A DNA stretch of 64,000 nucleotides from Pseudomonas sp. ADAK18 (GTDB lineage: Bacteria > Pseudomonadota > Gammaproteobacteria > Pseudomonadales > Pseudomonadaceae), in assembly GCF_012935695.1 (NCBI RefSeq), contig NZ_CP052859.1:1467001-1531000 (forward strand). Reading direction: 5' to 3'. The translations under genes and the position numbers were made by a program. Below the pieces are notes generated by a model. It saw only the letters and a list, made by a program, of their open reading frames with translations. It did no database searches and was not told where the DNA came from. Positions 7,351 to 10,201 of the stretch are shown in pieces (within the stretch, counting starts at the first letter, position 1; the number at the start of each line of letters is the position of its first letter).

Positions 7351-7371
7351 TCCGCTGTTGATTCCTGGGGT

Positions 7372-7414
7372 CGCAGCCCGTTCTGGCCTTGTCAGGACGG
7401 GCTGCGATTCTTCT
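7372..7414 (+). terminator. Rho-independent terminator after the TonB receptor gene
   Basis: Perfect 10-bp arms CGCAGCCCGT (7372-7381) and ACGGGCTGCG (7397-7406) with further pairing inside the loop, followed by ATTCTTCT. It lies 22 bp after the stop codon and insulates the iron operon from the hrp-box cluster downstream. Confidence 0.85.
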
Positions 7415-7466: not shown

Positions 7467-7495
7467 GGAACTGAATCCGACAGGCCTCCCACACA
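7467..7495 (+). promoter_or_regulatory. hrp box 1 (HrpL-type ECF promoter)
   Basis: GGAACT (7467-7472), 16-base spacer, CCACACA (7489-7495). The hrp box known from Pseudomonas syringae is GGAACC-N15/16-CCACNNA, so this matches at 10 of 11 fixed positions with allowed spacing. It lies 100 bp upstream of the start at 7595. Two more such sites precede the next two genes, which makes chance unlikely. Confidence 0.8.
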
Positions 7496-7594
7496 GGGAT
7501 AGCCCTCTTTCCACAGAGTATTTCGACGATCACTCCGTTGTGACGCTTTGGACAGTGAGGCGAACCTTGTAATCAAGCCGAACTGGAGATGCAA

Positions 7595-8485
7595 ATGTCG
7601 GTACCCGCGTTCAATCAGCCCGTCGCCAATTCACCCAATAACGCCGCGCAGACTAAAGCCGATACTACGGCCGGCACCGAAGCCTCTGTCGCTTCGTCGA
7701 GGGGGCAAGAACCGGCCGGTTTAAATTTCGCAGAACAAAACAGCAAGTTCGGACCGATATTTGGGGGGCCGCCGCATCGGCCTCATCCAGGCCACTGGCA
7801 TGGTGGTGCGCCGGCACGACCGACTCCTGGAGGTCCGCCACCGCGACCGATGCCTGGAGGCCCGCCGCCGCGACCAATGCCTGGAGGTCCACCGCCTCGG
7901 CCAAACCCCACATTGCCGGATCCTCACTATTCAAAACAGAGTAATGAGCAGTTGTCCCAGAGTCTGCTGAACAACTTCAACGCGTTCAAGGCTCCATGGC
8001 CTGCGAACTACATAACGTCCAAAGGCCTGGAGAAGATGGCCGGCAAGCCGTTGACCGGCCATCCGTCCACGGATCAGAACATCCTCTTGGCCAGAGAGAT
8101 TCAGCGACGTCCGGACCTGATGAAAGCCCTTGATCGGGATGGCAGCACCGGTGTGCTGGATGGACGGCTAACCCGGCAAGATATCAACAGTGTTGTTCGT
8201 TCTGATAACCCGTTGAAGTTTCAAGACGACAAACAACTCGTTCAACAGATGCTTAACAATTTTAATGAATTGAAGGGCGGTTTCTGGAGTGACTCCATTA
8301 AAGTCGGCACGCTCAAGCACTTGTCTTCGCGACCGTTGACCGGCAACCCGACGACTGACTCGCTCATCCAGTTAGCAAGAGAAGTTACTACGCGATCTGA
8401 TCTGCTGGGGAAAATGGACAATATTGTCGGCTGGAAACAAGACGGCAAGATCAAGTGGGACGAACTGCTGCGTCTGCTGCGTTAA
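7595..8485 (+). CDS. Putative type III secretion substrate with Pro-rich linker and two HrpK/HrpF-like repeats
   Basis: 296 aa from the ATG at 7595 (GGAG at 7585-7588); the ATG at 7589 is too close to that site. The first 50 residues (MSVPAFNQPVANSPNNAA...) have no Asp/Glu in the first 12, Val/Pro at positions 3-4 and many Ser/Thr/Asn, as in P. syringae type III export signals. A proline-rich linker with tandem GGPPPRPMP units (about residues 66-105) follows. Two repeats of about 85 residues come next, each with LLNNFN or MLNNFN, a PLTGHP or PLTGNP motif, and an EF-hand-like loop (DRDGSTGVLDG; KQDGKIKWDEL). Repeats of this style recall the HrpK and HrpF/NolX translocator-associated proteins; that link is from memory. 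It is transcribed from hrp box 1 and has its own terminator. Confidence 0.75.
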   Translation: MSVPAFNQPVANSPNNAAQTKADTTAGTEASVASSRGQEPAGLNFAEQNSKFGPIFGGPPHRPHPGHWHGGAPARPTPGGPPPRPMPGGPPPRPMPGGPPPRPNPTLPDPHYSKQSNEQLSQSLLNNFNAFKAPWPANYITSKGLEKMAGKPLTGHPSTDQNILLAREIQRRPDLMKALDRDGSTGVLDGRLTRQDINSVVRSDNPLKFQDDKQLVQQMLNNFNELKGGFWSDSIKVGTLKHLSSRPLTGNPTTDSLIQLAREVTTRSDLLGKMDNIVGWKQDGKIKWDELLRLLR

Positions 8486-8519
8486 ACCACAGGCCTTACC
8501 GTATTACCCGAAATGCAGG

Positions 8520-8553
8520 AAAGCGCCGCGAACCGGTTGTGGCGCTTTTCTCT
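8520..8553 (+). terminator. Rho-independent terminator
   Basis: AAAGCGCC (8520-8527) pairs with GGCGCTTT (8541-8548), followed by a short T-rich run. It lies 34 bp after the stop of the repeat protein, so the next gene needs its own promoter. Confidence 0.75.
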
Positions 8554-8627
8554 CGGTCTGCCCATCACGAGGGTGGCACCTGGTTGAGACCGTTTACGTT
8601 TTCAGTTGCCGGTCATTTCAATGGTTA

Positions 8628-8655
8628 GGAACTATTTCTGCCGGATTGCCACACA
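8628..8655 (+). promoter_or_regulatory. hrp box 2 (HrpL-type ECF promoter)
   Basis: GGAACT (8628-8633), 15-base spacer, CCACACA (8649-8655). The two blocks are identical to those of hrp box 1, but the spacer differs in length and sequence, so this is not a simple local duplication. It lies 60 bp before the ATG at 8716. Confidence 0.8.
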
Positions 8656-8715
8656 GGGTGTATCCGATGGCTTTTATGGCGCCGAAGGCTTTTCACTCCT
8701 AGCGAGGGCTTAGAC

Positions 8716-9069
8716 ATGACCTCAACGTCGTTTGGAGCTCGTACTCCCGGACCCCAGCAATCCTTTCAAGCGTCTCCTTGCGAAAGCAGGGAGGGATCCC
8801 GTCTTTCTGATCCGCCGAGCCTGCTTGCCGAAGGCAGCGGCGAAGCTCTGCGCGTAAAAAAATTTGCCGGCCAACACACATTCAAGGCACCCGCGGCGGC
8901 GGATTTCGCTAAAGGAATGCTGCCCCATCAAGCCCCAACGGCTCCTGACCCCAATCCGTTAGCCAAGGTGGGTGTGGCCATGGAGTCCATGATCAAAGCA
9001 GTGAAGGCTTTTATTGGAGGGTACAAATCGCAAACATCCTCTTTGCCAATGACTCGAAAACCCGAGTGA
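8716..9069 (+). CDS. Unrecognised 117-aa protein under an hrp box, candidate type III secreted protein
   Basis: I do not recognise this protein. The N-terminus (MTSTSFGARTPGPQQSFQAS) is Ser/Thr/Pro/Gln-rich with no acidic residue in the first 20, typical of type III export signals. The middle is Pro/Ala-rich, and the C-terminal third has a likely amphipathic helix (VGVAMESMIKAVKAFIGG). No transmembrane segment or known motif is seen. GAGGG (8704-8708) precedes the ATG. The upstream hrp box and its position between two repeat proteins support a secreted or chaperone role. No terminator is obvious after it. Confidence 0.6.
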   Translation: MTSTSFGARTPGPQQSFQASPCESREGSRLSDPPSLLAEGSGEALRVKKFAGQHTFKAPAAADFAKGMLPHQAPTAPDPNPLAKVGVAMESMIKAVKAFIGGYKSQTSSLPMTRKPE

Positions 9070-9130
9070 TGCAGTTTCCAGGCATCCGCTGACCGTTTAC
9101 ATACAGTCATCGAAATTGATCGACCGCCTC

Positions 9131-9158
9131 GGAACCATTGCTTGTAGGTGGCCACATA
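9131..9158 (+). promoter_or_regulatory. hrp box 3 (HrpL-type ECF promoter), full consensus
   Basis: GGAACC (9131-9136), 15-base spacer, CCACATA (9152-9158). This matches GGAACC-N15/16-CCACNNA at every fixed position. It lies 97 bp before the ATG at 9256. Confidence 0.88.
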
Positions 9159-9255
9159 CTTTTGCGCGTGTTTAACCACCGTTACTCCAGCGATGTGCGC
9201 TGTGACAGTGGTGGTGACAGGGTAAGTACGGATCGGGAAAAGGTGGGCATGAAAA

Positions 9256-9588
9256 ATGGCAATTGATGGTGGGCTACCCTACCTGCGGCCTGGTGCTATA
9301 GGTCGATTTGATGCGATACCGGATGAGGCACAGCAAAAAACGCATGAGGTTCATCCTGTTCGACAAGACGATCAGCAACGTTCGATCGACACGGTTCGAT
9401 CTTCCGGCTTCAGGCGTCCCTTGCGATGGGCCAATTCCTATGAGGTTGCATTGCATCACCGGGAACTGCAGAACGTTGCCTCCACGCGCGCCGGTCATGG
9501 GAACCCCTACACACAACTGCCGGATAGTCAGTTAGTGAAGGCATTGGGCGTTCATTTTTCCATGTTGGAAAACTTCCATGAAAAATGA
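9256..9588 (+). CDS. N-terminal part of a frameshifted hrp-box-controlled repeat protein
   Basis: 110 aa, MAIDGGLPYLRPGAIGRFDA through PDSQLVKALGVHFSMLENFHEK, then TGA. AAGGTGG lies 10 bases upstream of the ATG. The last 25 residues match the start of the repeat unit in the protein at 7595 (EQLSQSLLNNFNAFK), and the rest of the unit continues in the next frame from 9578. A run of five A bases (9581-9585) at the break would restore one frame if it were four. Most likely this is the 5' half of one gene broken by a +1 slip, a sequencing error, or a site of ribosomal or transcriptional slippage. Unlike the first two cluster genes it has an acidic residue at position 4. Confidence 0.6.
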   Translation: MAIDGGLPYLRPGAIGRFDAIPDEAQQKTHEVHPVRQDDQQRSIDTVRSSGFRRPLRWANSYEVALHHRELQNVASTRAGHGNPYTQLPDSQLVKALGVHFSMLENFHEK

Positions 9589-10201
9589 AGGGCTGAAGCT
9601 GGCTTCCCTGCAGCGTATTGCCAGCGAAAAAATGGGACCGAGCCAGGAACTCAATAACTCGATCTTACTGGCCAAGGCACTTATCCGCCGTCCACGATTG
9701 ATCGACGCGATCCTCGACGAGGATGGCTTTATTACCCGGCAAAGTCTTTTGAGGGCTGCGAAGAGACTGTTTGGCAACAGTGATCCCGACACGTTCAGCC
9801 CGGACCCCTTTCACGCCAAAACCAATGTCGAACTGGTTCAGGCGTTTCAGGCGATGTTTGAGGCGTTCCGTGACAAGTCGCAGGACCGGACAGTCTTTTT
9901 TGAAAAAATCGGCTACGTCAAAATTGAGCGGCTGGTTGCCATAAGCAAAGACCCAAACGAAATTGACACGCGGGGTGACGTTGTCCTGGATCTGGTCACC
10001 GGGCTGCCCAGAAAAAAATACGATGAACAGCACGTGTATATGTCAAAAAATCTTGTGTATCGTCCGGGGCTATTGCGTTCTTTGGAGAGTATCCAGGCCA
10101 GCGGACGTCGTATGTTCGGTAGCCATTATCAGAGGGGTTGGTTAAGCAACAAAGACGTTGAATGCTGGCTTAAAAACAACACCTCCGGTAACCCGTCTTG
10201 A
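9578..10201 (+). CDS. C-terminal part of the frameshifted hrp-box-controlled repeat protein
   Basis: 207 aa if started at the ATG at 9578, which overlaps the end of the upstream frame by 11 bp; no separate ribosome site is seen. It carries the remainder of repeat unit one (NSILLAKALIRRPRLIDAIL then the EF-hand-like DEDGFITRQSLL) and a more diverged second unit (NVELVQAFQAMFEAFRDKSQ ... LVYRPGLLRSLE ... LSNKDVECWL). The units align with those at 7595, where the equivalent text is ILLAREIQRRPDLMKALDRD. It could be made as its own polypeptide by reinitiation, but a split single gene is the simpler reading. Confidence 0.6.
   Translation: MKNEGLKLASLQRIASEKMGPSQELNNSILLAKALIRRPRLIDAILDEDGFITRQSLLRAAKRLFGNSDPDTFSPDPFHAKTNVELVQAFQAMFEAFRDKSQDRTVFFEKIGYVKIERLVAISKDPNEIDTRGDVVLDLVTGLPRKKYDEQHVYMSKNLVYRPGLLRSLESIQASGRRMFGSHYQRGWLSNKDVECWLKNNTSGNPS

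Follow-up and report, generated by a model that had tools for sequence, protein, structure and literature searches.

A boxed gene cassette in Pseudomonas sp. ADAK18

We analyzed a stretch of 64,000 bases (hereafter the window) from Pseudomonas sp. ADAK18, at positions 1,467,001-1,531,000 of a genome that consists of one contig of 6,471,780 bases and is given as 100% complete, and we focused on a small cassette of genes whose upstream regions match the hrp box, the promoter pattern GGAACC-N15/16-CCACNNA of the type III secretion sigma factor HrpL (RspL). An initial annotation had proposed three successive genes here, each 60-100 bp downstream of such a box. All three boxes are present exactly where they had been placed, the third as a full match and the first two one base off, and the box-to-start distances are 99, 60 and 97 bases for boxes 1, 2 and 3, respectively (93 bases from box 1 to an upstream ATG at 7589). 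The start chosen for gene 1, at 7595, was backed by alignment. The three boxed units hold four open reading frames (ORFs) rather than three genes, since the last unit comprises two, 3a and 3b, which overlap in different frames. As had been described, the N-termini of the gene 1 and gene 2 products resemble export signals and lack early acidic residues, with 6 and 9 serines, respectively, among the first 50 residues; the 3a and 3b products have 3 and 4 serines and one early acidic residue each (D4 in 3a and E4 in 3b).

Table 1. Features of the cassette and its upstream border (window positions; aa, amino acids)
Feature	Position	Strand	Description
Terminator-like inverted repeat (hairpin)	7371-7407	+	Ends the upstream TonB-receptor-like gene; read directly in the sequence
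hrp box 1	7467-7495	+	GGAACT-N16-CCACACA; conserved in 40/44 loci
Gene 1	7595-8485	+	296 aa; predicted disordered Pro-rich arm followed by four predicted helix-strand-helix EF-hand-like units
hrp box 2	8628-8655	+	GGAACT-N15-CCACACA; conserved in 28/44 loci
Gene 2	8716-9069	+	117 aa; Ser-rich N-terminus; matches no known family
hrp box 3	9131-9158	+	GGAACC-N15-CCACATA; conserved in 44/44 loci
Gene 3a	9256-9588	+	110 aa; the head of gene 3
Gene 3b	9578-10201	+	207 aa; the body of gene 3, in a different frame from 3a, whose end it overlaps; distantly homologous to gene 1

With C or T accepted at base 6, boxes 1-3 were the sole matches to the pattern on either strand of the window. Simulated sequences (300 first-order Markov simulations) contained a mean of 0.13 matches per 64 kb, and in none of them did three same-strand matches fall inside 2 kb. 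Genome-wide counts weigh against the boxes and would fit chance matches ahead of ordinary hypothetical genes: the GGAACC motif occurs 12 times and its reversed control 31 times, the GGAACT motif 12 times and its control 26 times, both being rarer than their controls. Counts alone are therefore weak proof, and we accept the boxes as real because their position is conserved among 44 loci, returned by a scan of genome contigs with a gene 3b profile and covering 869,808 bases on both strands (two fetched loci, L105 from G344 and L109, stand outside the counts). Beyond the conserved boxes, only 3 further motif matches were found in all of this sequence, and the GGAACT deviation is common at the conserved sites themselves (20/40 for box 1, 21/28 for box 2 and 25/44 for box 3). 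Taken with the clustering and with the co-occurrence with RspL/HrpL presented below, this leaves coincidence with a negligible probability, and we consider it refuted; the comparison supports the boxes as putative HrpL-type promoters that have been held in place across species. A link between box 1 and the similar box of the WH6 gene PFWH6_1942 was also considered and is unproven, no exact match having been found among 109 loci.

Inheritance of the cassette and its association with RspL

Relatives of gene 1 and gene 2 were detected by tblastn in 40/44 and 36/44 loci, respectively. Downstream of the cassette, the same convergent gene, resembling those of the major facilitator superfamily (MFS), is found in all 44 loci, and the TonB-receptor-like gene lies upstream in 39 of the 44, with at least one locus (L048) stopping too early to show it. 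The constancy of the convergent gene indicates that the cassette occupies one inherited site. The terminator and the convergent MFS gene between which the cluster had been placed are thus both there, and it is the notion of an inserted cassette that the shared downstream gene speaks against. No apparatus gene occurs in the ORF lists of the near surroundings of the cluster, in agreement with the initial annotation. About 3.6-4 kb before the window (G000:C1:1462379-1463398, where G000 is the ADAK18 genome; L026:15379-16398) gene 1 has a paralogue of 339 aa, preceded by an hrp box at L026:15248, and in P. spelaei (L032) an 84% relative, also boxed, lies about 8.2 kb upstream of the 3b gene. A 2450-aa ORF (L027:10706-18058) is likewise found upstream of the window.

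The distribution of the cassette was assessed by means of the gene 3b profile in a sample of 298 Pseudomonas genomes, 47 of which carry it. An RspL/HrpL gene or remnant at ≥69% identity was present in 47/47 cassette genomes and in 3/251 others (Fisher p ~1e-51, with relatedness ignored and the match in G255 being a fragment); identity was measured to a query from the P. fluorescens group, and the 69% line was set after seeing the list. The cassette occurs where its cognate sigma factor does, with just a remnant of the latter in ADAK18 and G255. The export gene hrcV, above its family cut-off in 114 of the 298 genomes, was detected in 45/47 cassette genomes and 69/251 others, and in 43/44 of the named cassette genomes when any class of hrcV is counted. 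In 43 of the 47, such an over-cut-off hrcV is found no more than 4 kb from hrpL, the exceptions being ADAK18, G207, G230 and G255.

By these comparisons the cassette is a conserved part of the Rsp type III regulon of the P. fluorescens group. The conserved HrpL-type boxes and the co-occurrence with RspL/HrpL and hrcV make the genes credible type III substrates, and this is our best reading of their products from the sequence. That part of the earlier proposal, which had called them candidate new substrates, holds; 'new' applies in a limited sense, because similar genes have been predicted earlier in relatives. One report describes, for each of A506, SS101 and BG33R, 14-15 hypothetical genes behind putative RspL promoters (PMC3390384), and another gives 15 and 11 candidate RspL-dependent effectors in two strains (PMC6647874). 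By their description, the predicted effectors resemble the cassette products: they are small hypothetical proteins of the same species group, their genes are boxed and stand apart from the rsp cluster, and their N-termini are export-like. The strains concerned hold an rsp cluster, whereas that of ADAK18 is gutted (PMC3390384, PMC6647874). Many homologues of the cassette genes are already labelled 'type III secretion effector protein' in their sources. A literature search on orphan effectors yielded nothing pertinent among the matches listed.

The broken rsp locus

The ADAK18 chromosome has its rsp locus at 233-244 kb. Compared with the intact locus of P. spelaei, about 7,003 bases between hrpL codon 9 and hrcQ are replaced by 14 others, and a second gap, between hrcR and hrcS, amounts to about 420 bases. 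The larger gap includes hrcV; we take it to span, in addition, hrpJ, hrpQ, hrcN (the ATPase gene), hrpO, hrpP and part of hrcQ, names that we assigned from gene order and appearance. What is left of hrpL corresponds to residues 9-183 at 84% identity; the first 8 codons and the upstream region are lost, and no ATG, GTG or TTG occurs within the first 61 codons of the open frame. This remnant aside, a HrpL search of the genome returned no match of 56 bits or more. The only TIGR01399 match in the genome, of 598 bits at 924,923, was dismissed as HrcV, being under the cut-off and among flagellar genes, so that the export gate of a complete injectisome was not found in the genome. Genes for other parts of the apparatus and two hrp boxes are retained at the rsp locus. 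Near it, an ORF (L101:1550-2791; G000:C1:229550-230791) has what we take to be the look of a phage-type integrase. The working HrpL-controlled type III system that the initial annotation had expected elsewhere in the genome is therefore not borne out: a search for hrpL and secretion genes does lead to an rsp locus and an hrpL remnant, but the locus lacks hrcV and the ATPase gene, and the remnant lacks its start. Relatives with intact rsp loci exist. P. fluorescens SBW25, of the same group, is reported to have a cryptic rsp locus in which, as in that of ADAK18, type III genes are missing or truncated (PMC2997014); ADAK18 differs in having lost hrcV, the ATPase gene and the hrpL start.

We therefore favour, with a probability of about 0.78, a cassette that belongs to the RspL (HrpL) regulon, has one hrp box per transcription unit, was inherited vertically and was orphaned in ADAK18 by deletions in the rsp locus. 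In relatives with an intact locus, RspL would turn on genes 1, 2 and 3 along with the Rsp apparatus, through which their products would leave the cell. In ADAK18, the genes for the export gate and the ATPase have been deleted, as have the hrpL start and its upstream region; with these missing, silent boxes and a lack of export are the probable result. Further pairs of a box and an ORF, observed on the chromosome (G000:C1) near 496210(+), 513194(+), 3422603(-) and 4316585(-), might be further members of this orphaned regulon; one scattered pair involves a short Gly/Met-rich, harpin-like ORF.

The cassette might instead be live in ADAK18, with the hrpL remnant or another extracytoplasmic function (ECF) sigma factor firing the boxes and the products acting inside the cell or leaving it by another way. 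The intact boxes would fit such activity, as would the open state of all the ORFs and the signs of purifying selection against near relatives: the ratio of nonsynonymous to synonymous substitution rates (dN/dS) against the two nearest relatives was 0.17-0.18 for gene 1, 0.20-0.29 for 3a and 0.10-0.12 for 3b. The hrpL remnant, with residues 9-183 still at 84% identity, points the same way, and the HrpL search counted six matches in the genome, five of them weaker and presumably other ECF factors. Selection measured between species is mostly older than the loss, however, the remnant lacks both a usual start codon and its upstream region, and cassette presence tracks RspL across the 298 genomes. 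We regard a live cassette as quite improbable.

The rsp locus is broken in other ways in two further cassette-bearing genomes. ISL-62 (G319) is the nearest relative found; there, the hrcV beside hrpL matches residues 1-265 only, with an ORF beyond it that resembles what we take to be an IS66 transposase, and about 3.5 kb are absent from hrcU towards hrcC; this strain carries a second system with its own hrcV. In G255, just residues 82-183 of hrpL are left within the 20 kb inspected. L031 and L056, the latter seemingly from G255, each have the cassette with its boxes, box 1 of L056 showing the -10 variant CCACGCA.

The cassette proteins and what they may do

Sequence comparison makes genes 1 and 3b distantly related copies of a single predicted module, in which a flexible arm precedes helical EF-hand-like units arranged in pairs. 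The predicted helix-strand-helix pairs may correspond to the paired units of calmodulin-like EF-hand proteins, the fold scores being weak, and one relative (P0041) exceeds the EF-hand_5 and EF-hand_6 cut-offs. Its loop has 12 residues and that of gene 1 has 17, owing to a five-residue insertion, and calcium binding is only putative; gene 1 itself gave no EF-hand match at E 0.01 and does not show the 12-residue calcium-loop pattern. Searches of solved structures by sequence with gene 1 and gene 3b profiles gave 0 matches, and Foldseek gave no clear match for gene 3b. The shared module suggests that the gene 1 and 3b products probably bind or scaffold, whether extracellularly or at the needle tip, rather than act as enzymes.

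A likeness to the HrpK, HrpF and NolX families, hinted at by the initial annotation, came down in profile searches to one short motif, with no match above any family cut-off. Membership of the cassette proteins in these families was accordingly rejected: gene 1 scored 13.7 bits against NolX (PF05819; cut-off 26.1), and two gene 1 relatives, which also matched NolX weakly, scored 23.1 (P0009) and 22.1 bits against HrpK1 (PF16937; cut-off 30.9). The motif lies around an EF-hand-like loop; in the comparison with the HrpK domain, hhalign (E 3.5e-4, probability 37.5) aligned just 34 of 251 columns. Genes 1 and 3 could on this account encode translocator or needle-tip proteins of the HrpK/HrpF/NolX type and not effectors, a role that might be vacant, as the ADAK18 genome has no PF16937 match. 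Two rsp clusters are also described as having no translocation component such as rspZ (PMC6647874). A search of the genome with PF05819 also gave nothing and was uninformative, because the controls gave nothing either. Against a translocator role, a single EF-hand-like motif can occur in unrelated proteins, and four genomes (G017, G069, G080 and G111) carry the cassette and PF16937 together; we consider this role unlikely. No paper joining HrpK, EF-hand and type III was found in a literature search.

The division of gene 3 was compared in the window and the 44 loci (L042, with an unreliable 39-aa pick, was left out of the classes). The arrangement of ADAK18, in which 3b starts inside the end of 3a and overlaps it by a few bases, is found in 11 cases (the window and L031-L040). 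Gene 3 is a single ORF of 301-320 aa in 22 loci, and in another 11 (L062 and L064-L073) it is split at a different junction, with GGAG-stop-GTG in most; in L068 the downstream frame looks interrupted. Among the 45 pairs of L031-L040, median dN/dS was 0.26 for 3a (maximum 0.71) and 0.17 for 3b (maximum 0.32), and this constraint on both halves implies that the split is an old, retained state and not recent decay in ADAK18. According to the structural prediction, the junction separates the first helical unit from the remainder. We prefer translational coupling over programmed frameshifting as the likely way in which 3a and 3b are made, because the overlapping start is retained in 11/11 loci of this type and the bases before the stop are variable.

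More tentatively, and with the balance of probability leaning against it, gene 1 and gene 3b might be diverged copies within a family of type III-exported calmodulin-like proteins peculiar to the P. fluorescens group; gene 3, stably split at two places in two sets of species, would then yield a coupled two-part exported protein, and the apparatus would have been broken in at least 3 ways in three lineages that kept cargo and boxes. The functions of type III secretion in non-pathogenic bacteria of this group have been called enigmatic (PMC3390384). With its boxes and its single site in dozens of species, the cassette offers a small, testable set of likely substrates, one of them with a predicted fold. 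ADAK18 would show the regulon with its machine lost but cargo and promoters intact, and ISL-62 and G255 represent other breaks of the rsp locus.
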